Of a stretch of DNA of 64,000 bases, positions 21,529 to 64,000 are shown in pieces. This DNA comes from Morinoia aosen (lineage: Eukaryota > Arthropoda > Malacostraca > Amphipoda > Talitridae), in NCBI GenBank assembly GCA_030386875.1, contig CM059563.1, forward strand, positions 52,145,602 to 52,209,601. Reading direction: 5' to 3'. Every line of letters begins with the position of its first letter. The first letter of the stretch is position 1. A program made the translations under genes and the position numbers. The notes below the pieces were generated by a model. The model was not told the origin of the DNA. It did not search any database and saw only the letters and a list, made by a program, of their open reading frames with translations.

Positions 21529-21711
21529 GTATTTATATGCATTATCGAACTTAGATTAACCCAACTAAGCGAATGTGTTTTTTATGTTTTTATCTTAATC
21601 GTTTACTTCGACCCTTGATATGGGTCTTGCTCAAGTGTACATATCAACTAAGGATCTTAATGCCAAGACGTTTTAAAAACCAACCTTGTACAATTTCATG
21701 TATCAAATTTA

Positions 21712-42200: not shown

Positions 42201-45200
42201 GTGCCGAGAAAACCCTCTCCCAGCGCAGACCAAATGGATTTAGCTCATCGCCCTGGCTGACTGGCTCCACGAAGATCTACGTTTGGTAAACGTATAGCGT
42301 AGGAGCGGCAGGTGTAACAGTTCCACCACAGCAGCAGCAGATGTAGCCGTGACCTCAACAGTAGCCGTAGCAGAAGATGTAGCCGTGACCTCAACAGTAG
42401 CCGTAGCAGAAGATGTAGCCGTGACCTCAACAGTGGCCGCAGCAGAAGATGTAGCCGTGACCCCAACAATGGCCGCAGCAGAAGATGTAGCCGTGACCTC
42501 AACAATGGCCGCAGCAGAAGATGTAGCCGTGACCTCAACAATGGCCGCAGCAGAAGATGTAGCCGTGACCTCAACAATGGCCGCAGCAGAAAATGTAGCC
42601 GTGACCTCGACAATGGCCGCAGCAGAAGATGTAGCCGTGATCTCAACAATGGCCGCAGCAGAAGATGTAGCCGTGATCTCAACAATGGCCGCAGCAGAAG
42701 ATGTAGCCGTGATCTCAACAATGGCCGCAGCGGAAGATGTAGCCGTGATCTCAACAATGGCCGCAGCAGAAGATGTAGCCGTGATCTCAACAATGGCCGC
42801 AGCAGAAGATGTAGCCGTGATCTCAACAATGGCCGCAGCGGAAGATGTAGCCGTGATCTCAACAATGGCCGCAGCGGAAGATGTAGCCGTGATCTCAACA
42901 ATGGCCGCAGCGGAAGATGTAGCCGTGATCTCAACAATGGCCGCAGCAGAAGATGTAGCCGTGATCTCAACAATGGCCGCAGCAGAAGATGTAGCCGTGA
43001 TCTCAACAATGGCCGCAGCGGAAGATGTAGCCGTGATCTTAACAATGGCCGCAGCGGAAGATGTAGCCGTGCCTTCATCAGTAGCCGTAGAGACACCACC
43101 AACACTGTACCTTATCGCAGTACACAACACGACACATACTTGTAACCGCTGCCACACGGTAAATTGGACAGCCAGAGACACGGCCCTCCACTGTCCTCGC
43201 TGCCTCTTTTACAGCACTGTCCTGAACTGCTGCGCAGTCGTACGCGCAGAAGGAGTTCTGCTGCGCTGTAAACATAGAAGGTTCAACGCAGACGAACATA
43301 TCATGAGCCCATTGAAAACCAAGTTAATGCGGCATTGAGTCTACTGCAATGCCAACGTCTGGAATGAATGCGAGCAATTGTAATTTGTACGAGGGGAAAA
43401 TTCCCCGTTTTCTACATCAGCACTGAAAATGACATACATTGAATGGAGCGTCCATCATTTGGGTCTAGTCAAACATTCATGAGAATTAAGGTCCTGACCC
43501 ATGGTGGATAACAACGCAAGCTGGGAAAGAAACAAGTTAATCAAATTATGGCTTGTTTTATTCAGAAGCTAAGAGCATTATAAACTCGTATGTTTGAACT
43601 TAATGTCGTGTGACGTTGTAATGGAATAGCTATTGTCATAAACGGACGACGTCGTGTGGTCGTCTGGTTTCTCTGAGTTTATCTTTCACTTTACTCTCGA
43701 AGAGAATTTATTTGTTTATCATATGTTAAAACTAACCAGCATTTACTATACATAGTGTTCGAAAGCAAATACCACAAACTTTAACAGCATAATTAAAACC
43801 CCAAAAGAACAACTTTCTAGGAGTGAGCAAAAATCCAAAACATTCATAATGCTCGTGATATCAAATCGCTAAGTTGTAGGGTCTATAGGCAGATTTCTTG
43901 TTCTACTTTATCTTAAACCAGCAAATTGTGACATTAATTTTAGTGGTCGTTTGCTATAAACCGACATTGTGTAATATCTTCGCGTGTATGAATTGCTCGA
44001 TAAAAACTGAAAAGATAAACATGGATCTTGTTGGAAGGGAAGTTATCGCTGCACCACTCACTGTGGATGATCCACGAATGTTTTATCGTGTCCGGAAGTC
44101 GCTTCTGTGTTGGTACCAGACCTGCATTGACGTTGCGGGCGGACATTTCGAACACTTTGTAATATTACAATTCCATAACGAACTGTTCGTAATCAGTTAA
44201 GTTTCCGTCACCTACTACATTAAGGACTGCCCCTATCATTGGTAAATGGACCATTCACAACTTAGAAGTTCAAAATCGTAAAAACGAATATTTGATTTCC
44301 CTCTTGTTCAAGAAAAGTTATTCTTTTAGATTATCACATCTACTGTAAGAGATTGTACCACCAATTTTGAGCATCCTTTACATACAGCTCCTGCGGGGAT
44401 TTTTCTTCCTTAATTACCGCTTCTCGACTGTTCACTGCACACATGTTAAAGTCTCACGCATGTGCCAGCGCGCACGATAACATTTCAAGTCTTCATTGTG
44501 AACGCAGGATGAAATTTCGCACCTACGGACAATTTTTACTGTGTGACTGATAAGAAAGGGCTGATGAACTTGTATTGAACTTCGTGTCTGCTCAAGGACT
44601 GTCTGGACCGCGTAATTGTGAGGTAGTGGAGCGAAGGATTTTTTGGCGTAGACTGAACGAGCGATCGTTCAAAAAATTCTAGTGGGAAGTTTTTTCATTA
44701 CGTTCTCCGACAGAACAGCTCATTTCACTGCCAATGTTATTTTACGTGACGTTTGCGCGAAGAACTAGCCCTGTAAGATGAGGTATGCGGTTGTAATTGA
44801 TTCTTAGGTAGCTTCGCTGCTAGATAATTGCATAATATAACATGCTTTCATATGCTATGAAATGCAATGCTATTTTTATGTATATATTTGTGGATTTGAC
44901 TTTTTTCTGTAAATATTTTTTTGAAACGTTCACTCTTCTATAAAACACATGAAATAATTGAAATGCTGTTCATTCACACCTATTTGTAAATGAGCAATTC
45001 ACTTAGTGGTACTCTTACGCCCCATTGCAAAAGGCAGTCAACTTTAAAGGGGTTATCTACGGGAATTAGCGCTCCCAAGGCGGAAATGAGAGGACCCGAG
45101 TTGAGTCGAGCAAGCCTTCCTTTTGCTGAAATAGATAGGTGTTTTGTTTTCTTACAGGCTATTTTTTCGACTCACTGCTGTCCTGTTCTGCAGCGCCTAC

Positions 45201-48200
45201 TACTTTCTTTGTTGAACTTTCATTTTATTTCGTGGACTTCTTCCCTAATTTAATGTTTCTATGCGCTGGGGAACTGGTGTGGAGACACACCTTGTGCGTA
45301 GATTGTAGTTCCCTTTAATAGATTGTAGTTCCACTCTAAATAAGGATTCTCTTCTCCTTCGTTTCTTTGAACACCTTTATTGTGGTTAAAGAGGCCTAAA
45401 TATACATCTAATCTTTGTTTCTTTTTCTCTTCTCAGGGGGGACAACTATCGTATCTATGAGAAGTAACGTTCCTAGGAGAAAATGTGTGGTCCCGAGCTA
45501 ATGGCTAAGTAGGCCTTTTTTGATGAAATAAAATAGTTTTTGTTATGTTAAGGTCCATCTTTTTTCGGTTCACTGCTGTCCTGTTTTTCAGCCCCTATCG
45601 CTATATTTTTCAACTTTCATCATGTTTCGTGAAGCTTATCAACTTTTTGTTTCTATACCGCATGTGCATAGATTTCGCGTTCCCTTAACTACATACTTAA
45701 TAGTGCCTTCCTCTTTCCTCTCTTTGGATCGCTTTTGTGGCGGATAGGGAGGTTTAAACTAACTAATAATCTAATCTAATCCTTCTATTCTTCGATACGC
45801 CTTCTAATCCTTCTATTCTTCGATGCGGTTAGGGAGGCTTAAACTAACATGCAATGAAATTCGTTCAATCTCATTTCTTGTCTCTGTCTCTTTCATCTTA
45901 TCTGTTTCTTTAGTCCTCCCTTTTCTGTTTTCTTTCGCCTCTGATGCTCTAATACTCCCATACATTGGAAAAAATTCGGGTTTCTATTTATTATAACTTT
46001 CCAAGATGCTTATCCTAGGACCTTCGCAGGCTGGCGCGGGCTGTGCCTCACCTGACACCTAAATTTGTCCCGCGTAGCGTGTTGACCCAGCAATGTAGTA
46101 GGAACTGCTAATGAAACATCAGTACTGTAAATAAAATAACAAGGATAGTTACTTTCAAAATTGGCATTAATTCTTTGAGAGTTTAATATGTCAGACACTA
46201 AAAATATACAGTAAAATTGAACGTTACGACTACAAGGGCCATCTTCAGCATCTGAGGAAACGCAAAAAAATAGTTTTTTCGTACAGTTAAAAAAAAATAT
46301 ATGTATACATACTTAACATATGTGGTTATTAACAGGAAATTTGAAAGGATAAGAAAGATTGGACATCATTTAAAACCGGTTTATCTTTCATGATAAAAAA
46401 AGACTCTAAAATTCGAAGATCGGTTTGATTAGAAGTATAAAATTCTCAGTACAAGCGATTTTTTTGCCTATCCGTTTAGTTTTAATAATTGTTTGGGATT
46501 ACTGTTTGAGTTGTGGATACTTATTTCTATAATTTTGTTGTGCTGGATTTAGATATTCCAGTTATTTTCTGTTCCAGGTTTGGATTTTCACCTTACGGTG
46601 TGCATCGGCATTGCCTTATTGTTTCGCTGACCACAATAGCAGCACGTCACCGCAGCTCACAACACTGCTTGACTCCAAGCCCAGGGACACGAATGTTAAA
46701 AAATTGTAACATTGTATCAACAACTCGCTCCCAAATGCGATACATTAGTACAATTATTACTGAACACTATCGCAATGGACGGGTTGAGATGTATATAAAT
46801 AAGTATAAGTAACATGTAAGGTATTATTCTTGAATAATTAACGCTAAACGTACATTACACCGATCGAATAATTGTTTAGCGTGAGAAAGTGAAAAATTCG
46901 ATCTATATGACTAACTGCGCAGGTTAATGATGCAAGCCATAACCGTACAATCAGAAATTGATTTAATACCATTTCCATTAGTAACCCGTGTGTTGTTGCA
47001 GCGACCACCGCGAGGCGCGATGCTGCAACGCCAAGTACGGGCCCGCCCTCAAGAACCTGCTGCCATGGCGGCCTGCTCCCAAGTGGGTTGTGTGGTGCTG
47101 TGTTGTGTGTGTGTGTGCCTCTTGTGTTTGGGGGCTGTGTTGTAGACATATCGTCACATAGCAGAACAAGGTACAGCAAGTTTGAGCCGTTGAAGCCTCT
47201 TCACCCTATTCATTACTCAGTTAAGGGTTTAGTTGCTCTTCTAGAGAGGCTACTAATTTCCAAGTTTGTATTTTTTCCGCCTCATGAGTAGTTGATATTT
47301 TGATCACTTTCATTCCTTTCTTATTTGACAAATTTTGTCAACCTTTCCCTGGCATCGAAATAGAGCCAGTGCCTTTTTATGTGCATTGTAGCCGGCTCAC
47401 TGCCCCGTGGCATTCGGTTGAACATTTTTCATGCTCGTGCCATACAACAGTCTGTGTTACAGTACGCTACTAAACTACGAACGAGTATTTTGTCACCTTT
47501 TTTTGTGGTAGCATGACTTTATCTTCAAGTATATCGCCTTAATCGTTAAAAGTTCACTCCCAGTTGGCGATCTGTTACTATAAGATTTTACTATATAACA
47601 GCTCTCCTGGTGCCTCCCGCATCCAGTTGACAACAGAGTTGGGGGAGGCTTGACCAAGTGGAAACGTGTGATATTTGGCGTTAACTGCTGTTTTACTCTT
47701 TACTACTATAAGCAAAATTGCTTCGTCGTTTTCTTTTGTTCGTTTGTCTGGCTCGAATATTTTTTGGTCTCTTCAACTGCTTCGACATCATACTCGATTT
47801 CCGCTGCATTTTCCCATTTCTAACGTAAAATTTTGAGTGATCGAGCGAATATTTTATCCTCAATTAATTTAAAAACTGATTCTTTTATTTTAAATAGTGA
47901 AATTATTCTCCCATTTTATTCTGTTTGAAAGTTCGTTGGAATGAACTGAGTAAATATTGTGAGCGTATGAAATTCTCGCCACAAAGCTTAATTAGCTTTG
48001 TGACCTCATGAGGTAGAATCCCATTTTTGATGTGAACTCTGAAGTATCACAAACGTAACGCATGGATAGGAAGACGTTTTATTCCAATTTAGTTAATGTT
48101 AAATGCATGACGCAAATCCCCTTGTTCATTATCTTGTGAATGACGTGTTTGAGAAACTAGGCACACTTCCCAGCATGATGCCATGACAGGCAGTTGTGTA

Positions 48201-51200
48201 TGATGGGCATAAAGTGAAAAAGAAATGATATAACGTGGAGTATGATCGCCTATTGTATTGCATCATCGTAGAAGGAAAATTTGCAAAGAAAACAGCGTGG
48301 TAAGACCAGATAAAAGCTTATCTTAAAAATATCCCGTTGACAGTGCTCTTCCTCTTTGATTGCTGCGCGGTGGGGCGTGTGTGGCGAGCTATAGTATAGC
48401 GAGATAACGCTGTTGTCGCGCTTCTTTTACTCTCTTGAGGACTCTCGCTTCATTGATCCAGGTCTCTGATAGTGGGGTAGGTCAACAGAGAACTGACCTT
48501 TAGCGAGTGACAAAAATTGACTTCTTTTCAGGATGAGATTTTTAAAGCTATGTTTTGAAACACTAGAGTAACTGCTTCTATCCAAACGCTGTGTGGTTTT
48601 GAAGTCCTCTCATTCGATAAGTCGAGTTCTTCGCTTCTCATCGATTCAAATAAGTAAAATTGGTTTTAAATCGTGCCTCAAATTTTTACATCTCATCGCC
48701 TTCACCATTCCACCACCATTTGCCGTGATCCTCACTGTGCTGTGTCTGCGACTATTTCCTCCAGTCCCCGGCAATTTCCCGTGGCCGCCACCAAATCCCC
48801 CTAGGGCTTCACAGAGTTGTAACTAAGCAGGTTGGAGTCCGCTAGAACTAAGAGTCCATGTACCGTTTGCTAATGCTGTGCCGTGGTCCACAGAGACCCT
48901 AGCTACCTCCCTGGCCACGACGTGGGCCTCTTCAGCTGCATGAGCCTCTCCTGGATGTCCTCCCTCATGTACAAGACCAGAAAGGGCCTCCACAAGGACG
49001 ACATGTGGAAAATTGAGGTAGGCGTGCACTTCAGTGTGGAATACATCGCACGTTTTCTCATTATTATTGCTCTTAGATCGGTCATTTATAGCCTCGAGAA
49101 CCTGTCTTAATGATGCATCAGCGGCGCTGTATATTTGAACGAAAAAAGTTGCTGTGCGCGTCGGTGCTGGTTTTTAGATTTGCGTTTTTGTTCGTGGGTT
49201 GAATTTTTATACAGGCAGTAGTGACGTGAGTTGCTTGGACTCAGTTTTCTCTTCACTATGTGTGTGTTGAAGCATTTCTATGGACATGGTTCTTGTTTTT
49301 TTGGGTAAATGTTTTACTTTTCCGGTATCTTATTATGCAATCGATCTCTTGAGCATTGCAGTGTAGCTTACTTTTTGCATCGGGATATTATTGCGAGAGC
49401 AAATCTCTTCAATGGTCAGCTTTAATCTTTGACTTTATATTAAAGACTCGCTCCTTTAGTTTATAGTATTTGAGAGCGCGTTTTCACGTGCTTATTGTAG
49501 TCAGGTATAAATAGATCTTACCAACATACACATATATTACCTACTTAACTGGCTCTCTGTATGTCGCTTTGTAAGCGAAAATGTAGCTAACTAATATGCT
49601 GAATGTCACTCCTTCACGAATATTTATTTCTTGAGTGCTTCTTCTCTAATCTATACCAGAGCTCTATCCAAGACTCTGAATTTCAATTCCCATGTTCTAC
49701 GTCCCTTAATGTGACCAATGACTCCAGTTCACATCACGTATGAGCTTACGCAAAAAATACCCGCGCTGCTATGCCCTGAGATCAGTGCTACTCCGAGTCG
49801 CTGGACTTCCCCAACTCACGGAAGCCTGGAGCCTTTGCTTCGGTTGTGTTGTGCTGAGCTTCTGTGCGTCCGGGCCATCAGATTCGCTGTTTTTCTGGTC
49901 GTTGAGCCCGGACTACCATGACTAATCTCTCTGGGAAACATGCGGTATTAAGTGTGAAAGGCAGCGAGATAAGAAAGAAAGTCTATTTCCAATAAAGATG
50001 ATACAAAAATCATCCTTTGGTTTTTAGAGCATCTCTGACAACGACAGCTCACCGGTATCAGAATGTCGGATTGGCATTTCTGCTGGTCAATATTCCATTT
50101 TTGTTTTCAGATGAAATTAAAGCGACCAAAATATTCAGTATCTGAAGTCCCTTAGTGTTGTCAGATGTGAAGTATTTTTACCTTAAAATTTCGCGAGGAA
50201 GAAATCCGAGCTTCAGGATGTTGGCCGTAAAGAAGGCCAAAGCCTGGACAGCGATGTGCTTTGTGTGTAGCTTTGTGCGGGTGTCGAGGTGTGATTTTTT
50301 TGTAACCAGATAGTTATGCGTATCGGTGGTGCAATGGTGCTACCCAGCGGTTGTGCAGTGTTGCTGCCCAGCGGTGGTGCAGTGTTGCTGCCCAGCGGTG
50401 GTGCAGTGTTGCTGCCCAGCGGTGGTGCAGTGTTGCCGCCCAGCTGTGGTGCAGTGTTGCTGCCCAGCGGTGGTGCAGTGTTGCTGCCCAGCGGTGGTGC
50501 AATTTTGCTGCCCAGCGGTGGTGCGATGTTGCTGCCCAGCGGTGGTGCAATGTTGCTGCCCAGCGGTGGTGCGATGTTGCTGCCCAGCGGTGGTGCGATG
50601 TTGCTGCCCAGCGGTGGTGCGATGTTGCTGCCCAGCGGTGGTGCAATGTTGCTGCCCAGCGGTGGTGCAGTGTTGCTGCCCAGCGGTGGTGCAGTGTTGC
50701 TGCCCAGCGGTGGTGCAGTGTTGCTGCCCAGCGGTGGTGCAGTGTTGCTGCCCAGCGGTGGTGCAGTGTTGCTGCCCAGCGGTGGTGCAGTGTTGCTGCC
50801 CAGCGGTGGTGCAGTGTTGCTGCCCAGCGGTGGTGCAGTGTTGCTGCCCAGCGGTGGTGCAATGTTGCTGCCCAGCGTTGGTGCAATGTTGCTGCCCAGC
50901 GTGTGTGCAATGTTGCTGCCCAGCGGTGGTGCAATGTTGCTACCCAGAGGTGGTGCAATGTTGCTGCCCATCGGTGGTGTAATGTTGCTGCCCAGCGGTG
51001 GTGCAATGTTGCTGCCCAGCGGTGGTGCAATGTTGCTGCCCAGCGGTGGTGCAGTGTTGCTGCCCAGCGGTGGTGCAGTGTTGTTGCCCAGCGATGGTGC
51101 AATGTTGCTGCCCAGCGGTGGTGCAATGTTGCTGCCCAGCGGTGGTGCAATGTTGCTGCCCAGCGGTGGTGCAGTGTTGCTGCCCAGCGGTGGTGCAATG

Positions 51201-54200
51201 TTGCTGCCCAGCGGTGGTGCAGTGTTGCTGCCCAGCAGTGGCGCAGTACTGTACCCTCTGAAAAGGGTAAAATTACACGTGCACCACACACCAACATCAC
51301 ACACGCCCTGGAGCCCGGATGCAGGGCCGGGTATGGACGCAGATCATGCGTGCTCTAGCTATAGCTCACACCCTCCTCCCCCTATCTCTCCTGGTTCCGC
51401 TCACTTTTACTTCTGTAAATTTCCTTAGTAAATGTTCCACACATGTTCGTTCCGGTTTATAGAGCAAGTTACTTTGGTAATAATTAGTACGTACAATTAC
51501 TTAGTACCAATTAAGACTGGGTGCTTTCTATTACGTCACCAGAGGGCGTTGTGTTGCTCTCCTCACGATATCTGTGTTACGGTGTTGGGTCTGTGAGGTG
51601 TCAAGTCGATGCTTTGTTTGTACATGTTAATGCTCGTGTTGTGGCTCTCTGCGGTTCTTTATTTGCTGTGCTTGTTTCCTGGGTACTCGTATTGTAAATA
51701 CTGTTGTACTCGGATGTTATTAAAGCAGTTGTTTTCCCGCGTTTGTTGCGCAGTTGTTTTCCGCATTTGTTCAGTAGTTGTTTTCCCTCATTTGTTCAGT
51801 AGTTGTTTTCCCTCATTTGTTCAGTAGTTGTTTTCCCGCATTAGTTCAGTATTTGTTTTCCCGCATTAGTTCAGTAGTTGTTTTCCCACATTAGCTCAGT
51901 AGTTGTTTTCCCGCATTAGTTCAGCTGTTGTTTTCCCGCATTAGTTCAGCTGTTGTTTTCCCGCATTAGTTAAGTAGTTTTTTCCCGCATTAGTTCAGCT
52001 GTTGTTTTCCCGCATTAGTTCAGTAGTTGTTTTCCCGCATTAGTTCAGTAGTTGTTTTCCCACATTAGTTCAGTAGTTGTTTTCCCGCATTAAATCAGCT
52101 GTTGTTTTCCCGCATTAGTTAAGTAGTTTTTTCCCGCATTAGTTAAGCTGTTGTTTTCCCGCATTAGTTCAGCTGTTGTTTTCCCGCATTAGTTCAGTAG
52201 TTGTTTTCCCACATTAGTTCAGTAGTTGTTTTCCCGCATTAGTTCAGTAGTTGTTTTCCCACAATAGTTCAGTAGTTGTTTTCCCGCATTAAATCAGCTG
52301 TTGTTTTCCCACATTAGTTAAGTAGTTTTTCCCGCATTAGTTCAGCTGTTGTTCTCCCGCATTAGTTCAGCTGTTGTTTTCCCGCATTAGTTCAGCTGTT
52401 GTTTTCCCGCATTAGTTCAGCTGTTGTTTTCCCGCATTTGTTCCGCAATTGTTTTCCCGCATTTGTTCCGCAGTTGTTTTCCCGCATTTGTTCAGCAGTT
52501 GTTTTCCCGCATTTGTTCAGCAGTTGTTTTCCCGCATTTGTTCAGCAGTTGTTTTCCCACATTTGTTCAGCAGTTGTTTTCCCGCATTTGTTCAGCAGTT
52601 GTTTTCCCGCATTTGTTCAGCAGTTGTTTTCCCGCATTTGTTCAGCAGTTGTTTTCTCGCATTTGTTCAGCAGTTGTTTTCCCGCATTTGTTCAGCAGTT
52701 GTTTTCCCGCATTTGTTCAGCAGTTGTTTTCCCGCATTTGTTCAGCATTTGTTTTCCCGCATTAGTTCAGCTATTGTTTTCCCGCATTAGTTCAGCTCTT
52801 GTTTTCCCGCATTAGTTCAGCTGTTGTTTTCCCGCATTAGTTAAGTAGTTTTTTTCCCGCATTTAAGTAGTTGTTTTCCCGCATTAGTTCAGCTGTTGTT
52901 TTCCCGCATTAGTTCAGCTGTTGTTTTCCCGCATTAGTTCAGCTGTTGTTTTCCCGCATTAGTTCAGCTGTTGTTTTCCCGCATTAGTTCAGCAGTTGTT
53001 TTCCCGCATTAGTTCAGCAGTTGTTTTCCCGCATTTGTTCAGCAGTTGTTTTCCCGCATTTGTTCAGCAGTTGTTTTCCCGCATTTGTTCAGCAGTTGTT
53101 TTCTCGCATTTGTTCAGCAGTTGTTTTCCCGCATTTGTTCAGCAGTTGTTTTCCCGCATTTGTTCAGCAGTTGTTTTCCCGCATTTGTTCAGCAGTTGTT
53201 TTCCCGCATTTGTTCAGCATTTGTTTTCCCGCATTAGTTCAGCTATTGTTTTCCCGCATTAGTTCAGCTCTTGTTTTCCCGCATTAGTTCAGCTGTTGTT
53301 TTCCCGCATTAGTTAAGTAGTTTTTTTCCCGCATTTAAGTAGTTGTTTTCCCGCATTAGTTCAGCTGTTGTTTTCCCGCATTAGTTCAGCTGTTGTTTTC
53401 CCGCATTAGTTCAGCTGTTGTTTTCCCGCATTAGTTCAGCTGTTGTTTTCCCGCATTAGTTCAGCAGTTGTTTTCCCGCATTAGTTCAGCAGTTGTTTTC
53501 CCGCATTTGTTCAGCAGTTGTTTTCCCGCATTTGTTCAGCAGTTGTTTTCCCGCATTTGTTCAGCAGTTGTTTTCCCGCATTTGTTCAGCAGTTGTTTTC
53601 CCGCATTTGTTCAGCAGTTGTTTTCCCGCATTAGTTCAGTAGTTCTCCCGCATTGGTTGAGCAATAGTAATCCGATATTATTCAAGCAGACGTTCTTCTT
53701 TATCATACAACCAGTTGCATTATCGTATTGTACAGTATATGCAGTTGGACTCGCCTATAAGAGAAGATGTGAGGTCCGCAGCCGAAGGTTAGGTAGGCCT
53801 TTTTTGGTTATGTTGATTTTGTTACGGACAATGGGTTTCCAATTCACTGCTGTCTTTTTTTAGCCCCTTATACTGACTTTAACTTTTATCTTGTTTCATA
53901 AACTTCTTTTCTAACTTACTGTTTCGCCTCAGGGGATACAACTATTTTATCTATTGGGAATGCCTTGATCACGGTTAGGGAGGCGCAAACTAACATCCAA
54001 TTTCTCAATGTACTGTTTCCGCGCGGAGAGGATATTGTGTAGGAACATACCTTGTGCATAGGTTCCGCATTCCCTTAACTCCATACTAAATGGTGCCTTC
54101 ATCCTTCTTTTCTTTAGTATACTTTTGTTGCTGTTAGGGAGAATTTAACCTGACTGATAACTTAATCTATTCTGCCCTGGGGTATTTCTCATGCAGTGTC

Positions 54201-57200
54201 AACATTTTAACTCGTTAATTTATCGTATTTACACTTTATTGCCCAACAGGATCCTACATTTTTCAAAATAAAACTGGAGTGCTTTATATTTCTTGTTGAA
54301 GTTGTGCCCTCATGTATTATTTGAAGATCACTGCTCAGTAGCAGGTGTTTTTGATTCTGATGTCGGCAACATTCTGATGAAGGTGGTTGTCATGACAACA
54401 AACGCAACGGTAATATGCCATGAAGACGGTTGTGATGACAACAATAGCAATGGTAACATGTGTCGTGATGACGGTTGTCATAAAAAATGCAATAGCAATA
54501 ACCTAAGCAATAACTGAAGACTACGAAGTCCCACACAATAGCTGTAATAACAGTACCCTGACCAACACCTGGGGAGTGTGACAGCGTAGCTGCAACAACA
54601 GTAACCTGAACAGTACCCTGACCATCACCTGGGGAGTGTGACAGAGTAGCTGCAACAACAGTAACCTGAACAGTACCCTGACCATCACCTGGGGAGTGTG
54701 ACAGAGTTGCTGCAACAACAGTAACCTGAACAGTACCCTGACCATCACCTGGGGGGTGTGACAGAGTAGCTGCAACAACAGTAACCTGAACAGTACCCTG
54801 ACCATCACCTAGGGAGTGTGACAGAGTAGCTGCAACAACAGTAACCTAAACGGTACCCTGACCATCACCTGGGGAGTGTGACAGAGTAGCTGCAACAACA
54901 GTAACCTGAACAGTACCCCAACAAACCACCGCGTAGCGTGACCGAGTAGCGCGGCTGTGCAGGAGTCGGACAGCGCGGAGCTGAACACGGCGCGGCTGAC
55001 GCGGCTGTGGCGGGAGGAACAGGAGCGGGCGCAGCAGGAGGCCAGGCCGCCGCTCCTCAAGACTGCCGCAATTCGCTTCGTCCGCACCCGCACCCTCGTG
55101 TCCGGCCTCGTGTCCATGTTCAACACCGCCGTCATGTTCTTCCTCACGGTACTGGCTGGGGGAGGGCTGGAGGGGAGTTGGGGTGGGGTTGGACTAGGGT
55201 TAGGATTGGGGCTTGTGCTTGCTTTGGGAGTTGGAGGAAGGGTTAGGATATAATTGTGGGTGAGGCTTGGGAGAATTGAGGCTAGAAGGGAGTTAAGAAA
55301 AGTGCAGAAAAGAAAAAAAATAAACTGTAGGTAGCCAAAACGTTGACGAAGAATGTTAACTTATTGAGACTTTACACTGAGTTTTCGAATGTCTGTGAAT
55401 GGTTGAATCAAATAGGAGCTAAACAGTAAAAATTTTCTATTACTTTACTTTAAGTTACAGAAAACTTCATCCCTTACTTCGTCTACCGGTAATGTTTAAG
55501 AAAAGCCTTAAACATTACCGGTAGACTAAGAGGTGAACACAGTTGATGTTGACACAGATACGCTTTGAGGGACATAGCCTTCCCATTTACACTTGATCCG
55601 GACGGTTGCTAATCATGACCAATGTTTTGAGTGTGATGTGTGAGAAAAATTATTGTTCCTCGAAAGCAAAAAGTTTATTGTTCGGTAATTTGATTTAGGG
55701 GATATGCACGCACTAGTCAAAATGAATGTTTATCGCATTTTATCGTGCGCTAAATGAAGTCGCTAGTTGAAAATATCATGTGAAACTAATACCGTTTCAA
55801 GTTATTTTCAGTTATTGGAAAAAAGTTGCTCTACATGTTGTACAACAAGCATTCTACAATATTTATAACCTAACAAATAGACAAACATTAACAGTGAAAA
55901 AAATGAATGTGTAAGAGCACACAACGTACATTTATATTTTTCATTTTGGGAGACAGTAACTGACACATGACCCGCTCAGTGATAGGACTAAATATATTGT
56001 GGTAGATTCATGTTTCATTTACAGTTGAAGTTGAGATTGGCATTAGTTATGTAATTAGGATTGAGAAAAGGTACACGATTCGAGGAAACTTCTAAATTCC
56101 ATTTAAAGCTTGGCCCACCATGATCTTTAACTATCTTTCATATCTGGACGTAATATCCTTCGCTACTCGAAAGCCCTGTGTTCTTATAAGAATTTAAAGT
56201 ATCAAGTACAATTTTGTCAGTATGGAGTACTCTGTATGCTGTAGATAGTTATAACAGCGCTAAACTGTTCTTTCACTTCCCAGAATATTATTTTTTACTC
56301 GTAGTCAACGCGCTAGTTACTGCATTATTTTCAGTTCTCGTATTCTTGAACGTTCTTCTTACTGTTCCTGCCATTTCCCGTACTCGATCTCTCGTCAATT
56401 ATTTTCTGGCTGCCAGGACATCGAGCTCCGTACGTTCGGTTGGTCGAGGAATACCGTGAATGTAACTCGATCGTTGAACGGTGCCTTCTTCTCTTTACTG
56501 CAGGACTCGTACTGATGTTGCGCTCCTATTGTGCGCCTGTCCATTGACTCTTTTTTACACTTCCTTCCCATCTCTTGAGAATGTATTCCTTGTGTGTAAC
56601 GGGATTCTGTACTCTTAGTTTTCCCCCGGGTTTGGGAGCATATCTTTTTAAGATAAATTTTAAAATATTGTTAAGTGTTAATAATTTCTTGTGGAAGATT
56701 TACGGTTCATCTTGGGTCCGTTGGATCCGTTGTAGAAGACAAGCTGTGTTGTGTTCATGAGCGTGCCGCAGAGACGAAGTTTCGCCTCATTTGTGCCCCT
56801 AGCTCTCCATGGAAGAATTTGCAATACTCCTGCCTGGACTTTTTATCTGAACATTATTGAATGAGTAGCGTATACTTTTGTTCCGCTCAACTGTTCTCTT
56901 TCCCTTCCTGTACTCGTATCCATGACTACCTACCCGAGCGTTTTAGAGTAGTTTTCTTGATTTTTGATGCACTTCGACATCTACGCTGCGACTTGCTATA
57001 CGGTTTTCTTAACTTTGTGTTACAAAAATCTTCAGTGAAATCGTGGGTGACCGGGGATACGTAAAATTTGCCATCAGGACTGCGTATAACCAGTAATGAA
57101 CTTTGTCCCACGTGCCGCAGAGTCACGTGATGCGCATGACGCTGGACTACGTGAACAGCTCTACGCGCGAACCCAGAGAGGCTTGGCTCATCTTGGGGCT

Positions 57201-60200
57201 GGTGGTGCTGCTGAACTTGTTGCGTGCGGTCTCCTTCAACGCCATGTTCGTGATCTCATCTCACTGTGGTCAGTCTTTATGTTGATTGGCACCACGTTTT
57301 TACTGTGCTCTCTGTTAGTCTTACGGTGCACTGCATATTGTATTTTCTCACGGATAAGACGCTTCGGAAACACTTCTAATTTAGTGGTTAATTCAATGGT
57401 AAATGTTGAGCAGCGATGCGACTGACAGGGGCGCTGCAGGGGATGGTGTTCCAGAAGGTGCTGCGCCTGCAGACGGGCGGGGAGGAGTTGTCTGCTCAGG
57501 TCTCCAACATCATCAACAACGACATGGAACGCGTCATGGAGGCCGTCATATCCGTTGTGTTCCTTCCGGGTAAGCTGCACCATCTCGCCGGCGGGTAACT
57601 CGACGGAATTGAATTTAACGCAGTTTTTTGTGCTCTCCTCTCAAGAGAATACAGGTATTGTATCTATGGGAATTAGCTCTCCGAGGGAAAAATGCAAGAT
57701 CTCCTACTGGAAAATAGTTAAACTTGCGTAATTTTGAAATAAAATGTGTTTTTGTTTTTTACGGACGATTTTTTTTTGGTTCACTGCAGTCCTGTTTTTT
57801 AGCACCTACTATTTTTTCTCAAATTTTAAACTGGTCTCATGACCTTACTGAATAACTTGCTGTTTCTATGCGCGGGGGATCTTGTGTGGGACAACACCTG
57901 GTGCATAGATTCCGCAGTCGCTAAATTCCGTACTAAATGGTGCAGGCTCCTGTCCTGTCTATGGAGAACCTCTGTCGGGATGAGGGAGACTTAAACTAGC
58001 TTGTTTAATTTTTCTATGTATCAAAGTTGGAGCTTCTGTATCCTGTCAGAACCGTTGCCTCCGTCCCGTAAAGGAGTTCTGAGTCATCGCTAGAACTCAT
58101 GGCTGAGATAGCAGCCCCAGACGTGCAAACCCGAACTTGTACCTGATTTTTTCGAACAAAATGTTATCGTCAAACTGGTGGTAACGTGGACGTTCTGTGC
58201 GAACGTTTTTGAAATCTGGTGTTATTTTTTCAAACGTTTTTCTGGTGTTATTTTCATTGCGTAATGGGTTGAGCATCACATTTTTGACCCGGAGAATGTT
58301 TCGTTCCCAGTCTGGTCCATGCTTAGAGTTATGCAGCTTTTGTATAGAGTGGTGCAGCTTCTCCTGTGGTTATAGAAAACGGAGAAGAAAATCATGATAG
58401 GATAAAGGAGGGCTCGGCTATTCACAAACTTTGCGCTCAATACACCCACTCCCTCTCATTGCGTTGATAAACGGAAATAGCATATCTACGACACAATTTC
58501 AGTGTGGGGCGATAAATAAACATGTTCATCGATATAGGTACGTGCACATCACACGTATTTAACACGTTCGCTGCCGCATCACGCACATGTGTTCAAGAAG
58601 TACCGGGAGCAGAACTGGATATTTACCGAAAGCTTAGTTGCTTATCGACCACTATAGCGTACCGCTCTTGAATTTACAAAAACTACCGATATCATTGGCA
58701 CTCTAGCCCTTCAGTAAAATAAGAAAAAGCCCACTAGCCTTTCAATAAAATCCATAGATAAATAAATTAATTCCTCCCTTCCTTCTTAAATATCAAAGTT
58801 CCTTTAGCATATTCATCTCTGACGGGTGTGAGGATGTCAATTGGCGGTGACGGTAGTGAACGTGTTAAGTGTACTCTGGTCTCACTGTTGACCTGCATCT
58901 CTCTCTCTCCTCCAGGCCTTCCCTTGACGACGATAGCTGCGCTGCTGTACAGCTGGTACATCGTTGGGGTTTGGTGCCTGTTGGGGTACCTCGCCATCTT
59001 CCTCTTCGTGCCCATTGTGGTGAGTGCGTGGTGCGGCACTGCGCCGGTTACGTCTGGTGTGGCGCCTTTTCACTGTCGCTATTCGTTATGGCAGCTTTAC
59101 CTTTTGGAGGCATTTCAACAGGCATGAATCCAGACAGGAATGGTTAATATAAGAGAATATTACTGCTCAGGCGAGGTGCCTCTTCAATATATAACTGCGG
59201 TATCCAAGGGCTATTTTAGGATCAGAATTGTAGTATTTTTTAATCTCGTAATTCAGATCGTCAAGTGAGGGCTCTCAAAAACCCGTAGCATGTATGTCAA
59301 TCGTCATTATTACTCGTGCTCATCCAGACACATATTCCTATGTATCAAGAGACTCATTGTGAAGTGCGGTGGCAACTCAGGCTTACGTTACATAAAGAGC
59401 TTGGTATGCTGCAGTGAAACAATCATGTCCAGTGATCGTGTCTGTGGCTCGGTCTTGTTTTTTTTTTATCACCGGAAAGAAACAGTAGATTTTAAGTTAG
59501 AATTATCTTGAACACGACATTGTTAGGCTCGTGCCTTGTGGCTTAGTTATACTGACTGCTTGTTGAAAATGCGTCAGAGAAAAAGTCATGAGCTTTCGTT
59601 GAAACATTTAATGCTTCATTCGAATGCCAATTTCGAGGATGAGTTTCAGACGTTTATAATGTGCCTTTCACGCGTTTCGAGGGGCTAACTCGCTTTCTAC
59701 ATTAATTTTGGCGTCTACAGAAACATAACTTTGAATTGCTTTTGCATTCGCAGACACCCGTGACTCTAAATAGTATTTGTTTTCCCAGATCCACGTGAAT
59801 GAATAGTATTTGTATTCACAGATACACATGATTCTAAATAGTATTTGTTTTATTAGGTACACATGACTGAATAGTATTTGTGTTCTCAGAAAACGTGAAT
59901 GTGAATGACTTGCTTCCTCAGAAACACGTGAATGCGAATGACTTTTGCTTCCTCAGAAACACGTAAATGTGGATGATTTTTGCTTCCTCAGAAACACGTG
60001 AATGCGAATGACTTTTGCATCCTCAGAAACACGAAAATGGGGATGACTTTTGCTTCCTCAGAAACACGTGAATGTGAATGACTTTTGCTTCCTCAGAAAC
60101 ACGAAAATGGGGATGACTTATGCTTCCTCAGAAACACGTGAATGCGAATGACTTTTGCATCCTCAGAAACACGAAAATGGGGATGACTTTTGCTTCCTCA

Positions 60201-63200
60201 GAAACACGTGAATGTGAATGACTTTTGCTTCCTCAGAAACACGTGAATGTGAATGACTTTTGCTTCCTCAGAAACACGAAAATGTGGATGACTTTTGCTT
60301 CCTCAGAAACACGTGAATGTGAATGACTTTTGCTTCCTCAGAAACACGAAAATGTGGATGACTTTTGCTTCCTCAGAAACACGTAAATGGGGATGACTTT
60401 TGCATCCTCAGAAACACGAAAATGGGGATGACTTTTGCTTCCTCAGAAACACGAAAATGTGGATGACTTTTGCATCCTCAGAAACACGAAAATGGGGATG
60501 ACTTTTGCTTCCTCAGAAACACGTGAATGTGAATGTCATTTGCTTCCTCAGAAACACGTGAATGTGAATGTCATTTGCTTCCTCAGAAACACGTGAATGT
60601 GAATGACTTTTGCTTCCTCAGAAACACGTAAATGTGAATGACTTGCTTCCTCAGAAACACGTGAATGTGAATGACTTTTGCTTCCTCAGAAACACGTGAA
60701 TGTGAATGACTTTTGCTTCCTCAGAAACACGTGAATGTGAATGTCATTTGCTTCCTCAGAAACACGTGAATGTGAATGTCATTTGCTTCCTCAGAAACAC
60801 GTGAATGTGAATGTCATTTGCTCCCTCAGAAACACGTAAATGTGGATGACTTTTGCTTCCTCAGAAACACGTGAATGTGAATGTCATTTGCTTCCTCAGA
60901 AACACGTGAATGTGAATGTCATTTGCTCCCTCAGAAACACGTAAATGTGAATGTCATTTGCTTCCTCAGAAACACGTAAATGTGGATGACTTTTGCTTCC
61001 TCAGAAACACGTGAATGTGGATGTCATTTGCTTCCTCAGAAACACGTAAATGTGAATGTCATTTGCTTCCTCAGAAACACGTGAATGTGAATGTCATTTG
61101 CTTCCTCAGAAACACGTGAATGTGGATGTCATTTGCTTCCTCAGAAACACGTGAATGTGAATGTCATTTGCTCCCTCAGAAACACGTAAATGTGGATGAC
61201 TTTTGCTTCCTCAGAAACACGTGAATGTGAATGTCATTTGCTTCCTCAGAAACACGTGAATGTGAATGTCATTTGCTTCCTCAGAAACACGTGAATGTGA
61301 ATGTCATTTGCTTCCTCAGAAACACGTGAATGTGAATGTCATTTGCTCCCTCAGAAACACGTAAATGTGAATGTCATTTGCTTCCTCAGAAACACGTAAA
61401 TGTGGATGACTTTTGCTTCCTCAGAAACACGTGAATGTGGATGTCATTTGCTTCCTCAGAAACACGTAAATGTGAATGTCATTTGCTTCCTCAGAAACAC
61501 GTGAATGTGAATGTCATTTGCTTCCTCAGAAACACGTGAATGTGGATGTCATTTGCTTCCTCAGAAACACGTGAATGTGAATGTCATTTGCTTCCTCAGA
61601 AACACGTGAATGTGAATGTCATTTGCTTCCTCAGAAACACGTGAATGTGAATGTCATTTGCTTCCTCAGAAACACGTGAATGTGAATGTCATTTGCTTCC
61701 TCAGAAACACGTGAATGTGAATGTCATTTGCTTCCTCAGAAACACGTGAATGTGGATGTCATTTGCTTCCTCAGAAACACGTGAATGTGAATGTCATTTG
61801 CTCCCTCAGAAACACGTAAATGTGAATGTCATTTGCTTCCTCAGAAACACGTGAATGTGAATGTCATTTGCTTCCTCAGAAACACGTGAATGTGAATGTC
61901 ATTTGCTTCCTCAGAAACACGTGAATGTGAATGTCATTTGCTTCCTCAGAAACACGTGAATGTGAATGACTTGCTTCCTCAGAAACACGTGAATGTGAAT
62001 GTCATTTGCTTCCTCAGAAACACGTGAATGTGAATGTCATTTGCTTCCTCAGAAACACGTGAATGTGAATGTCATTTGCTTCCTCAGAAACACGTAAATG
62101 TGAATGACTTGCTTCCTCAGAAACACGTGAATGTGAATGTCATTTGCTTCCTCAGAAACACGTGAATGTGAATGTCATTTGCTTCCTCAGAAACACGTGA
62201 ATGTGGATGTCATTTGCTTCCTCAGAAACACGTGAATGTGAATGTCATTTGCTTCCTCAGAAACACGTGAATGTGAATGTCATTTGCTTCCTCAGAAACA
62301 CGTGAATGTGAATGTCATTTGCTTCCTCAGAAACACGTGAATGTGGATGACTTTTGCTTCCTCAGAAACACGTGAATGTGGATGTCATTTGCTTCCTCAG
62401 AAACACGTGAATGTGAATGTCATTTGCTCCCTCAGAAACACGTAAATGTGAATGTCATTTGCTTCCTCAGAAACACGTGAATGTGAATGTCATTTGCTTC
62501 CTCAGAAACACGTGAATGTGAATGTCATTTGCTTCCTCAGAAACACGTGAATGTGAATGTCATTTGCTTCCTCAGAAACACGTGAATGTGAATGTCATTT
62601 GCTTCCTCAGAAACACGTGAATGTGAATGTCATTTGCTTCCTCAGAAACACGTGAATGTGAATGTCATTTGCTTCCTCAGAAACACGTGAATGTGAATGT
62701 CATTTGCTTCCTCAGAAACACGTGAATGTGGATGTCATTTGCTTCCTCAGAAACACGTGAATGTGAATGTCATTTGCTCCCTCAGAAACACGTAAATGTG
62801 AATGTCATTTGCTTCCTCAGAAACACGTGAATGTGAATGTCATTTGCTTCCTCAGAAACACGTGAATGTGAATGTCATTTGCTTCCTCAGAAACACGTGA
62901 ATGTGAATGTCATTTGCTTCCTCAGAAACACGTGAATGTGGATGACTTTTGCTTCCTCAGAAACACGGGAATGTGAATGACTTCAGAAACGCTTCTTCAG
63001 AAACGCGTGAGTGTGAATGTCATTTGCTCCCTCAGAAACACGTGAATGTGAATGTCATTTGCTTCCTCAGAAACACGTGAATGTGGATGACTTTTGCTTC
63101 CTCAGAAACACGGGAATGTGAATGACTTCAGAAACGCTTCTTCAGAAACGCGTGAGTGTGAATGTTATTTGCTTCCTCAGAAACACGTAACAGTGAAGAT

Positions 63201-63328
63201 CGGTCAGCTGCGTAGCCAGGTCTCCAAAGTAGGCGACAGCCGCGTCAGCCTCATGAGCGAAGTGCTCAACAACATCAGGCTCATCAAGATGTACTCTTGG
63301 GAAGACTCCTTCGCCGCTGGCATCGAAA
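35887..63328 (+). CDS. ABCC5: ABCC5/MRP5-like ABC transporter, 5' part, eight exons
   Basis: This is the overview entry for the one host gene I can support. Eight exons join to 1,291 coding bases (430 codons plus one base) with no stop and with phase 2, 2, 0, 0, 1, 1 and 0 at the seven junctions. The product reads as the N-terminus and half of transmembrane domain 1 of a full ABC subfamily C exporter. From memory of human ABCC5 the match is collinear: KY...GLFSC...SW.SSL, W..(18 residues)..LW.EE, RTR followed by 29 residues to the EY/DY pair, then EVL..I..IKMY.W. Several of these spacings are identical to human. Family knowledge: such proteins are membrane exporters of organic anions and nucleotides. 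The nucleotide-binding domains lie beyond the right edge, so activity cannot be judged. A closely related ABCC member (ABCC4, 11 or 12) is the main alternative. Confidence 0.9.
36310..36665 (+). repeat. Dispersed ~370-bp repeat, copy 13, just inside intron 1
   Basis: Begins about 80 bases after the exon 1 donor. It is diverged in the middle (GTTGACTTCTGTTTTTTTTC) and long-interior in type (GCGCATGGTGTGGGGGACAC). Confidence 0.82.
37948..38022 (+). repeat. Short tandem repeat, about 26-bp unit, three copies
   Basis: GCTACACATTTTAGGATTTG AAAAA is repeated almost perfectly three times inside intron 1 of the transporter. Confidence 0.9.
38240..38395 (+). repeat. Dispersed ~370-bp repeat, 3' half (copy 14)
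   Basis: From CTTCCGAACTTGCTGTTTCT to CTTTGTTGTGGTCAGGAAGGC. Confidence 0.8.
38396..40756. other. Intron 1, middle part
   Basis: Short frames of 60-70 codons on both strands at 38.5-39.5 kb show no conserved motif. The phase between exons 1 and 2 does not require an exon here. Confidence 0.6.
39998..40110 (+). repeat. Dispersed repeat ending in an AATAAACTG tail, copy 2
   Basis: The partner of the 7.0-kb copy, here in intron 1 and followed by a T/C-rich run. Confidence 0.6.
40757..41045 (+). mobile_element. tRNA-derived SINE, copy 3, in intron 1
   Basis: B-box GGTTCGAGTCCCGGCG with a tRNA-like leader, the same body, and the end GGAAATAAAGCATCC. It lies in the sense orientation within the first intron of the transporter. 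Confidence 0.85.
41262..41575 (+). repeat. Dispersed ~370-bp repeat, copy 15, intron 1
   Basis: Starts at GCGCTCTCTGTAGGAATGTG and ends ACTAACATCTAATCTAAAC. Confidence 0.85.
42333..43085 (+). repeat. 36-bp minisatellite in intron 1, about 21 units
   Basis: Unit GTAGCCGTGATCTCAACAAT GGCCGCAGCAGAAGAT. The left units read GTGACCTCAACAGTAGCCGT; the middle and right units are homogenised to ATCTCAACAATGGCC. The unit is a multiple of three, so frames on both strands stay open: VAVISTMAAAED forward, ATSSAAAIVEIT reverse. The forward frame continues past the array (see the entry at 43076). Confidence 0.95.
43076..43338 (+). other. Open tail after the 36-bp array with a CxxC...CxxC pattern (unrecognised)
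   Basis: The forward frame of the array runs on without a stop for about 87 codons to a TGA at 43336. It holds HTCNRC, then about 16 residues later HCPRC, then further cysteines (NCC, LRC), a zinc-ribbon-like layout. Third positions are GC-richer than the neighbourhood. There is no ATG of good context before the array and no clear splice partner, and it lies inside intron 1 of the transporter in the same orientation. I do not recognise a family. It may be a remnant of an older gene or element, or chance. The reverse strand is also open in part, which weakens the coding case. Confidence 0.3.
43339..45044. other. Intron 1, right-central part
   Basis: AT-rich; nothing recognised beyond a 100-codon plus frame at 43898-44200 without motifs. 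Confidence 0.6.
45045..45412 (+). repeat. Dispersed ~370-bp repeat, copy 16, intron 1
   Basis: Long-interior variant with a short internal doubling of TAGATTGTAGTTCC. Confidence 0.85.
45434..45860 (+). repeat. Dispersed ~370-bp repeat, copy 17 plus short tail duplications
   Basis: A short-interior copy ending TAATCTAATCTAATCC, after which CTTCTATTCTTCGAT is repeated and GGTTAGGGAGGCTTAAACTA occurs a second time. Confidence 0.87.
47002..47082 (+). CDS. ABCC5: ABCC5-like exon 2: N-terminal linker
   Basis: A small 81-base exon after the acceptor tgttgttgcag. Its first base completes the split codon left by exon 1 (AT+C, Ile). It then reads DHREARCCNAKYGPALKNLL and on to ...RPAP, with two bases (AA) left over before the donor gtgggt at 47083. 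The KY(G/H)...L..L stretch parallels the human ABCC5 segment that starts KYHHGLSALKP, shortly before the GLFSC block. The distance from KY to GLFSC is 32 residues here against 30 in human. Codons end almost only in G or C. The exon is isolated by a 10.8-kb intron upstream. The donor is slightly weak; no better alternative nearby keeps phase. Confidence 0.8.
47083..48893. other. Intron 2 of the transporter
   Basis: 1.8 kb, AT-rich, with no repeat family of this window in it; notably free of minisatellites. Confidence 0.75.
48894..49017 (+). CDS. ABCC5: ABCC5-like exon 3: GLFSC conserved block
   Basis: After the acceptor gtggtccacag the first base completes Lys (AA+A). The exon then reads DPSYLPGHDVGLFSCMSLSW followed by MSSLMYKTRKGL and ...DDMWKIE, and ends in phase 0 at the donor gtaggc. 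The block D.GLFSCM.(F/L)SW(L/M)SSL is the signature of the ABCC5/11/12 group just before transmembrane domain 1. The human ABCC5 form, AGLFSCMTFSWLSSL, is the closest match I can recall. The segment is an amphipathic cytosolic elbow region rather than a membrane span. An antisense frame is open across the same bases but has no homology that I recognise. Confidence 0.92.
49018..50320. other. Intron 3, left part
   Basis: No gene. A 60-70 bp segment at about 50040-50100 (AGCTCACCGGTATCAG..., GGATTGGCATTTCTGCTGG) resembles 37825-37885 and is a minor dispersed repeat. Confidence 0.65.
50321..51256 (+). repeat. 24-bp minisatellite in intron 3, about 39 units
   Basis: Unit GTGCAGTGTTGCTGCCCAGC GGTG with mostly G/A changes in GTGCAGTG/GTGCAATG. 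With a 24-base unit, three forward and two reverse frames stay open for 260-370 codons (for example LLPSGGAV repeated, or HHRWAATL on the reverse strand). Nothing supports translation, and the array is flanked by exons 3 and 4 of the transporter, so it is intronic. Confidence 0.95.
51724..53656 (+). repeat. 25-bp minisatellite in intron 3, about 77 units with a higher-order period
   Basis: Consensus GTTTTCCCGCATTTGTTCAG CAGTT; early units have CATTAG and TCAGTAG or TCAGCTG. A block holding diagnostic variants (CAGCATTTG, CAGCTATTG, CAGCTCTTG, then a shortened unit with TTTTTTTCCC) recurs at 52741 and 53213, a higher-order repeat of 472 bases. Because 25 is not a multiple of three, reading frames rotate; the T-rich unit has no stop in the CATTTG form, giving long spurious frames. 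Confidence 0.95.
53757..54170 (+). repeat. Dispersed ~370-bp repeat, copy 18, intron 3, rearranged
   Basis: Begins right after the 25-bp array. A second 5' block (CAGGGGATACAACTATTTTATC) is inserted inside the copy at about 53930, so two copies are interleaved. Confidence 0.8.
54538..54962 (+). repeat. 60-bp tandem array abutting exon 4
   Basis: About six near-identical 60-bp units (CTGACCATCACCTGGGGAGT ... GCAACAACAGTAACC). A final decayed unit (about 54916-54962) aligns with them: GTGTGACAGAGTAGC in the array corresponds to GCGTGACCGAGTAGC, and CAACAACAG corresponds to the exon 4 acceptor GGCTGTGCAG. The unit length is a multiple of three, so a spurious reverse-strand frame (HTPQVMVRVLFRLLLLQ) stays open. 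Confidence 0.93.
54963..55148 (+). CDS. ABCC5: ABCC5-like exon 4: entry into transmembrane domain 1
   Basis: The exon has 62 codons in phase 0 on both sides and starts right after ggctgtgcag. It reads ESDSAELNTARLTRLWREEQ and then a charged linker. The segment from RTRTLVSGLV to FFLT forms the first membrane helix. From the Trp at the end of exon 3 to the Trp of LWREE is exactly 20 residues, as in human ABCC5 (ESSD...RLERLWQEE). Nearly every codon ends in G or C. The acceptor lies in the degenerate last unit of a 60-bp tandem array. The usual Gly-Pro found late in this helix in relatives is replaced by FFLT/SH across the exon junction. The donor is gtactg, a mediocre match to consensus. Confidence 0.92.
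55149..57120. other. Intron 4 of the transporter
   Basis: Contains the hairpin at 55481. Otherwise AT-rich, with no array and no recognised element. Confidence 0.7.
55481..55526. other. Perfect 20-bp hairpin in intron 4
   Basis: GTCTACCGGTAATGTTTAAG is followed by a 6-base loop (AAAAGC) and its exact complement. Short flanks (CTTA...TAAG) extend the pairing imperfectly. Too short for a typical animal pre-miRNA and without the T-run of an intrinsic terminator; more likely a remnant of a small foldback element. Confidence 0.85.
57121..57268 (+). CDS. ABCC5: ABCC5-like exon 5: transmembrane helix 2
   Basis: Follows the acceptor cgtgccgcag in phase 0 and ends one base into a codon before gtcagt. 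It reads SHVMRMTLDYVNSSTREPRE, then a long hydrophobic helix AWLILGLVVLLNLLRAVSF and ...FVISSHC. It parallels human ABCC5 FMVKHLLEYTQ...LLLVLGLLLTEIVRSW...NYRTG. Counting from RTR in exon 4 to the DY pair gives 29 residues in both, so no exon is missing between 4 and 5. The NSS motif after the first helix is a possible N-glycosylation site in the short outer loop. Intron 5, which follows, is only 145 bases. Confidence 0.92.
57414..57569 (+). CDS. ABCC5: ABCC5-like exon 6: intracellular loop 1
   Basis: The acceptor is gttgagcag. The first two bases complete Ala (G+CG). The exon then reads MRLTGALQGMVFQKVLRLQT, GGEELSAQVSN, IINNDMERVMEAV and ISVVFLP, ending one base into a Gly codon at gtaagc. 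It aligns without gaps to human VRLRGAILTMAFKKILKL...ELINICSNDGQRMFEAA. In the family this loop carries the coupling helix that touches a nucleotide-binding domain; the usual SNDGQR is SNIINNDMER here. Junction phases on both sides agree with exons 5 and 7. Confidence 0.93.
57632..58005 (+). repeat. Dispersed ~370-bp repeat, copy 19, intron 6
   Basis: Nearly full length, with 5' hairpin (ATACAGGTATTGTATC), long interior, and the tail ACTAGCTTGTTTAATTT diverged. Confidence 0.87.
58006..58915. other. Intron 6, right part
   Basis: No repeat or gene seen, ending in the strong CTCTCTCT pyrimidine tract of exon 7. Confidence 0.7.
58916..59019 (+). CDS. ABCC5: ABCC5-like exon 7: transmembrane helices 3-4
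   Basis: Follows a strong pyrimidine tract (tctctctctcctccag). The first two bases complete Gly. The exon then reads LPLTTIAALLYSWYIVGVWC and LLGYLAIFLFVPIV, and ends in phase 0 at a consensus gtgagt. It is almost wholly hydrophobic, matching the human ABCC5 GGPVVAILGMIYN...LGSAVFILFYPAM segment, two helices joined by a tight turn. Spacing from the (E/Q)RVMEA/QRMFEA motif of exon 6 to Y-S/Y-N is identical to human. The exon is followed by the 4.2-kb intron that is mostly one 35-bp tandem array. Confidence 0.93.
59882..63180 (+). repeat. 35-bp minisatellite (about 94 units) filling intron 7 and ending at the exon 8 acceptor
   Basis: The unit is AAACACGTGAATGTGAATGT followed by CATTTGCTTCCTCAG. 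Variants (GTAA for GTGA, GGATG for GAATG, GACTTTTGC for GTCATTTGC, TTGCTCCC for TTGCTTCC) are interspersed, and some units are 33 bp. The left third is more variable (GAAAATGGGG types); the middle and right are very uniform, implying recent expansion. Two short, diverged units lie at the right edge (62975-63170). Each unit holds a pyrimidine-rich CAG, and the last one is the exon 8 acceptor. Flank before 59882 already shows looser ancestral copies (about 59745-59880). Confidence 0.97.
63181..63328 (+). CDS. ABCC5: ABCC5-like exon 8: intracellular loop 2 (EVL..IKMY.W)
   Basis: Reads KHVTVKIGQLRSQVSKVGDS, then RVSLMSEVLNN, IRLIKMYSWEDSFAAGIE, ending one base into a codon at gtgagt. The block (N/S)EVL..I(K/R).IKMY(A/S)W is diagnostic of ABCC transporters. 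The distance from F-x-P in exon 7 to the RV before the EVL block is the same as in human ABCC5 only if the exon starts at 63181. That acceptor (ttgcttcctcag) is the last unit of the 35-bp minisatellite, so the first five or six codons are shared with the repeat unit. An upstream unit at 63106 would also keep the frame open. In this frame the array side reads ...LLPQ|KHV. Confidence 0.92.
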
Positions 63329-63462: not shown

Positions 63463-64000
63463 AGCAGAGTTCTTAACAACCGGACTAACATGAATACCGT
63501 ACACCTGACAACCGGACTAACAAGAATACCGCACACCTGACAACAGGACTAACAAGAATACCGTACTACTGACAACCGGACTAACAAGAATACCTTACAC
63601 ATGACAACCGGACTAACAAGAATACCGTACACCTGACAACCGGACTAACAAGAGTACTGTACTCCTGACAACCGGACTAACAAGAATACCTTACACCTAA
63701 CAACCGGACTAACAAGAATACCGTATACCTGACAACCGGACTAACAAGAATACCGTACACCTGACATCCGGACTAACAAGAATACCGTACTCCTGACAAC
63801 CTGACTAACAAGAATACCGTACTCCTGACAACCTGACTAACAAGAATACCGTACTCCTGACGACCTGACTAACAAGAATACCTTACACCTGACAACCGGA
63901 CTAACAAGAATACCTTACACCTGACAACTGGACTAACAAGAATACCATACACCTGACAACCGGACTAACAAGAATACCGTACTCCTGACATCCGGACTAA
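63463..64000 (+). repeat. 32-bp minisatellite in intron 8, truncated by the window edge
   Basis: Unit ACAACCGGACTAACAAGAAT plus ACCGTACACCTG, about 17 copies and continuing past the right edge. Variation is mainly TACACC/TACTCC, CCGTA/CCTTA and ACAACC/ACATCC. It starts about 135 bases after exon 8. Confidence 0.95.

Follow-up and report, generated by a model that had tools for sequence, protein, structure and literature searches.

The intron preceding one exon of an ABCC5-like transporter gene in the amphipod Morinoia aosen is largely filled by a tandem array of about a hundred short units, each of which carries a version of the 3' splice site of that exon. This array is probably a boundary minisatellite of the mirage type, seeded at the intron/exon junction and grown from there into the intron, with the last acceptor normally used. 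The DNA analyzed, here called the window, comprises 64,000 nucleotides of contig CM059563.1 (assembly GCA_030386875.1, positions 52,145,602 to 52,209,601 of the forward strand). The features on which the argument relies are the following.

58916 to 59019, + strand: upstream exon (LPLTTIA...FVPIV), identified by its translation, its donor (GTG/GTGAGT) and its alignment with human ABCC5.
59721 to 59889, + strand: the five oldest, diverged units, of 33-35 bp, delimited by cutting after AG and by alignment to units.
59890 to 62960, + strand: the uniform stretch of the array, made up mainly of 35-bp units of the form AAACACGTGAATGTGAATGTCATTTGCTTCCTCAG, from Tandem Repeats Finder and AG cutting.
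62891 to 63180, + strand: the five terminal segments, duplicated in tandem as 145-bp blocks (143/145 identical), the second of which ends at the real acceptor.
63106 to 63180, + strand: potential in-frame extension of 25 residues from the AG at 63105, predicted from the reading frame.
63146 to 63180, + strand: last unit, in which the real 3' splice site directly follows GTTATTTGCTTCCTCAG, from AG cutting and acceptor scoring.
63181 to 63328, + strand: downstream exon with KHVTVKIGQLRSQVSKVGDSRVSLMSEVLNNIRLIKMYSWEDSFAAGIE, identified by its donor (AAA/GTGAGT), translation, alignment with human ABCC5 and Pfam.
63181 to 63200, + strand: exonic part of the homology (KHVTVK, approximately the first 17-20 nt of the exon), which resembles the unit start.

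The + strand of the window carries part of this ABCC5-like gene, whose exons were called from reading frame and splice signals. When a translation joined from six exons, two of them with uncertain ends, was compared with solved structures, human ABCC5 was the top match (E 7.9e-30), followed by ABCC4 (3.9e-25). The alignment with human ABCC5 is gap-free over query residues 198 to 278, a stretch that spans the junction 59019/63181, and the claim of an earlier note on this DNA that an exon border at 63181 retains the residue spacing of the human protein is thereby upheld. The exon from 63181 also resembles the Pfam family ABC_membrane (E 2.4e-05); for this fragment of 50 residues the 24.6 bits fall below the curated cut-off of 28. 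The intron between the two exons measures 4161 nt, and the array fills 83% of it.

Tandem Repeats Finder placed the array at 59885-63188, with a period of 35, 94.4 copies and 93% matches, in agreement with the approximately 94 copies at 59882-63185 reported in the earlier note. Its 5' start lies about 160 bp earlier, at 59721: cutting after each acceptor-like AG gave 102 cut sites, the final one being the real acceptor at 63180, which does sit in the last unit as had been claimed. These sites delimit 101 segments from 59721 to 63180 (90 of 35 bp, six of 33, one of 32, two of 26, and two of 14). The modern 35-bp units (n = 88, whole array) show a mean identity of 95.6% to the consensus AAACACGTGAATGTGAATGTCATTTGCTTCCTCAG. 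The string TTTGCTTCCTCAG occurs 75 times and is followed by AAACACGTGA in 60 cases; the earlier wording, that nearly every unit holds both, was a little strong. Neither string occurs on the + strand of the window outside the array.

Long, near-identical repeats are hard to assemble, and one lancelet mirage seems, by one report, to have been misassembled in a genome draft (PMC3087553). That misassembly inflated the copy number here, or created the array itself, is nonetheless highly improbable: the segments are of 27 distinct types in a non-trivial order, with an old, diverged edge and longer-range repeats, which simple stutter would not yield. The copy number itself is uncertain. The unit also contains a CACGTG core (E-box), found 67 times in the array (one in each of 67 segments, 59890-63180) and 11 times in the remaining window. 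It is conceivable that this core makes the array an intronic enhancer whose splice-site content is incidental; we regard this as the least credible of all the readings weighed here, since the columns concerned are variable (at position 9, 67 of the 88 modern units have G and 21 have A, and position 8 is altered in 8/88) and the homology at the junction would stay unexplained.

The resemblance between array and gene continues into the exon. When the exon start AAACACGTAACAGTGAAGATCGGT and the unit are aligned in register at the acceptor, they agree at 17 of 24 positions, with no mismatch among the first eight; as had been proposed, the exon start is a diverged version of the unit start. Among 120,858 24-mers outside the array (both strands), none reaches 17 matches in register and one has the 8-nt prefix. 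Twenty exon 24-mers were likewise compared with all array registers: the first matched at 18/24 positions and the nineteen others at 11-13. In positions 1-59000 of the window, the best match to the exon's first 24-mer on either strand was 16. When 60 exon bases were aligned to two units with gaps allowed, the score was 19, which 0/300 shuffles reached, by a small margin (maximum 18).

A 44-base query across the boundary at 63180 scored 67 against a shuffle maximum of 24, and its alignment to the array runs from -24 to +17 of the junction, in keeping with the earlier claim that the repeat unit includes the 3' splice site. Because both the exon start and this boundary query match the array, the repeated unit is one that, judged from the sequence, spans the junction, taking in roughly the last 15 nt of the intron and the first 17-20 nt of the exon. 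Among the six acceptors and four donors surveyed (one donor having been placed one base off, at 57570 for 57569), a clear boundary duplicate was found only at 63180; the other five acceptors and the four donors gave scores of 14-24, within the range of their own shuffles. At acceptor 57120, a 12-base exact match about 360 bp upstream (56762-57122; score 24, 1/200 shuffles) was taken as chance or as a small local duplication, and not as an array.

At the 5' edge of the array, a 68-bp dimer is repeated, at 59754-59821 and at 59822-59889 (55/68 identical). The oldest segment (59700-59753, compared with two units) scored 27, the maximum among 1000 shuffles being 23; in 59640-59719 no array similarity was found, the score there being reached by 560/1000 shuffles. 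By eye, a C at position 11, common with the exon, is present in 3/5 old units vs. 0/88 modern units, and this may hint at the direction of origin. A reading of that direction from the oldest unit was dropped, since its alignment scores are tied at 13 with the exon and 13 with the modern units.

At the other end, the terminal segments 62891-63035 recur as 63036-63180, and the irregular 26- and 14-bp segments are confined to these two 145-bp blocks. This internal duplication suggests past turnover. It ends at 63180, which places the intronic flank of the real acceptor within sequence involved in array duplication; the exonic flank is fixed. The real boundary is an end copy, with an exonic side diverged from the units and a homogenised intronic side.

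The ABCC5-like gene looks rich in minisatellites. An array of 60-bp units (Tandem Repeats Finder, 54549-54918) lies in an upstream intron, before the acceptor at 54962 and the exon at 54963. Significant homology extends as far as 54950 (score 32, 1000-shuffle maximum 26), 12 nt short of the acceptor; the score in the adjoining exon is not significant (reached by 214/1000 shuffles). Because the homology stops short of both acceptor and exon, this array was rejected as a second boundary minisatellite. Two of eight arrays end at most 25 bp from an acceptor, which was matched in 68/20,000 random placements; the figure is only indicative, the test having been devised post hoc with seven of the eight arrays moved, all within 36000-64000. 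In the next intron (63476-64000), a 32-bp array begins 147 nt past the donor, contains the branch-site-like CTAAC 17 times and runs past the window end, and at 50324-53644 two further large arrays (24-bp units in 38 copies and 25-bp units in 77) lie between exons of the same gene. Elsewhere, a 36-bp array at 42331-43071 is open in several frames, one with the 12-residue unit AAAEDVAVISTM, for which a coding role is unsupported. Stretches of about 300-375 bp, for example 21705-22015, 27968-28323, 29740-30065, and 45418-45792, each match 10-13 distant places of the window in self-comparison and are perhaps dispersed copies of a SINE-like repeat. A 32-base piece of the 35-bp unit had no match in one scan of viral contigs, and Rfam (gathering thresholds) and ARAGORN gave no hits over the window.

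Two origins had been offered for the acceptor-bearing array, namely seeding by duplication of the junction and takeover of the acceptor by the array. They are not exclusive, and the pattern favors junction seeding and later turnover that has come to involve the acceptor, because the ABCC5 spacing is kept, divergence is greatest in the units at the 5' extreme of the array and the C at position 11 is common to most of the old units and the exon. Under junction seeding, about 35 bp across the acceptor (the last ~15 nt of intron and the first ~20 nt of exon) would have been duplicated in tandem. Slippage or unequal exchange would then have extended the array into the intron, with the oldest and most diverged units ending up farthest from the exon, at the 5' edge. 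At the 3' end, selection on the coding exon would have halted the array, so that the real junction persisted there as a fixed terminal copy.

The converse history, in which an intronic minisatellite with acceptor-like units grew exonward and, by unequal exchange or conversion, replaced the original acceptor together with the first codons, is unlikely, although several observations are consistent with it. The turnover by duplication extends to the real acceptor; the first residues of the exon, KHVTVKIG, show 0/8 identities to the aligned human ABCC5, and the remaining exon aligns well; and the array at 54549-54950 stops 12 nt before another acceptor, with no significant homology in the exon. 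Given the lack of identity to ABCC5 and the tied scores of the oldest unit, the array may have overwritten the junction long ago. However, such overwriting would have had to preserve, by luck or by selection, a frame and a residue spacing that are exactly kept, and it would have to be old, since the exon copy has diverged from the modern units.

Whatever its origin, the array probably obliges the cell to pick out the final one among roughly a hundred similar splice sites. In rough scoring from approximate textbook base frequencies, used in place of a trained model, the real acceptor at 63180 scored 9.92; 23 of the 101 other sites scored higher, and the array ranged from 0.61 to 11.27. Set against the 3258 AGs outside the array, it ranks in the top 1.4% by the same rough score. 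Of the 102 sites, 96 have a TNAY motif 9-25 nt upstream, but the strict yTnAy branch motif is absent 10-40 nt upstream of 63180. By these crude measures, the last site carries no local distinguishing mark.

With an exon running to 63328, 100 of the 101 upstream AGs lead to a predicted stop, 80 of these after 14 residues. The remaining one, at 63105, would extend the exon in frame by 75 nt, KHGNVNDFRNASSETRECECYLLPQ. The array itself was set aside as coding sequence, since the unit length of 35 is not divisible by three and the frames close quickly. A search for ratchet-type AG/GT sites found two AGGT within 59020-63185, one of them in the array (59855), with a donor half that is weak by eye.

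Most units offer a plausible 3' splice site, yet the transcript would normally take the last, most likely through exon definition with the exon's own 5' splice site, at 63329 (rough score 8.92), and exonic enhancers. Leakage to earlier units would mostly enter early-stop frames and be cleared by nonsense-mediated decay. We infer these two steps, exon definition from this donor and the clearing of mis-spliced messages, as the simplest explanation. Against the reading favored here, no segment exceeds 35 bp, and every upstream AG has therefore been retained, even at the diverged edge, which would be unexpected if upstream AGs were costly decoys under selection.

The same sites could be regarded as regulatory decoys, the array titrating splicing factors or diverting splicing so that its copy number tunes productive splicing, with a minor form from AG 63105 carrying 25 more residues. 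The CCTCAG columns, unvarying in 88/88 modern 35-bp units, are consistent with this, as is the division of the upstream sites into 100 of 101 predicted to be unproductive and one in frame. However, homogenisation can explain such uniformity without selection, and lancelet mirages reportedly leave splicing undisturbed. This reading is improbable, and the array presumably has no regulatory role. A specific form of it, a length-dependent rheostat in which each unit adds an unproductive acceptor, a rare in-frame form gains 25 residues and repeat-length polymorphism sets the transporter dose, is a little less probable again.

The array amounts to a natural tandem-acceptor experiment with about 100 competitors rather than two. 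If the last acceptor is used cleanly, local acceptor sequence counts for little and exon context decides. The array also indicates how a duplicated junction can come to occupy an intron, a point of relevance to boundary-duplication models of intron change. As a large and readily genotyped case, it lends itself to testing intronic repeat length against splicing.

Several natural tandem repeats multiply a real splice site, among them those of human IFI6/6-16, the 31-bp VNTR of CBS and intron 7 of F7. In these, the 5' splice site is repeated, in fewer copies, whereas here the acceptor is. The notothenioid antifreeze glycoprotein gene likewise arose by tandem expansion of a short element, located at a trypsinogen intron/exon junction; its repeats became coding, whereas those described here appear to remain intronic. 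In humans, internal tandem repeats of about 30 bp have been described at exon-intron boundaries in segmental duplications, where they can alter splicing (PMC2812944). They resemble the present array as ~30-bp minisatellites at an exon-intron boundary, but differ from it in averaging about four repeats and in being tied to recent paralogues and novel introns. A nematode minisatellite has been linked with alternative splicing (PMC4039745).

The closest parallels are the mirages, lancelet minisatellites that repeat an intron/exon boundary. In the two sources consulted, they are described in Adh3 and in the globins BflGb6 and BflGb9 (PMC3087553), PGBD5 was later added and troponin C cited (PMC3902484), and the examples under this name are all from lancelet (PMC3087553; PMC3902484). 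In both lancelet and amphipod, the tandem unit spans the boundary and splice signals recur in many units; in BflGb6, as here, the 3' end of the intron and the 5' part of the exon are repeated. The lancelet mirages and the present array belong to one kind of structure, and the remark in the earlier note that such an array is unusual is not supported if it is taken to mean new. The sizes described there are small: BflGb6 has 3-6 units of 150-160 bp and PGBD5 has 2-7 units of 60 bp and 3-6 of 108 bp, against 101 segments here; the Adh3 unit measures 10-72 bp, and the present one mostly 35 bp. Lancelet mirages are reportedly spliced normally, the globins having been examined by RT-PCR (PMC3087553; PMC3902484), whereas the present array is known from sequence. 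A search of the open-access literature found no acceptor-repeating array of comparable size. The array looks like an extreme, unusually large member of the mirage class, a kind of structure that is itself already known.
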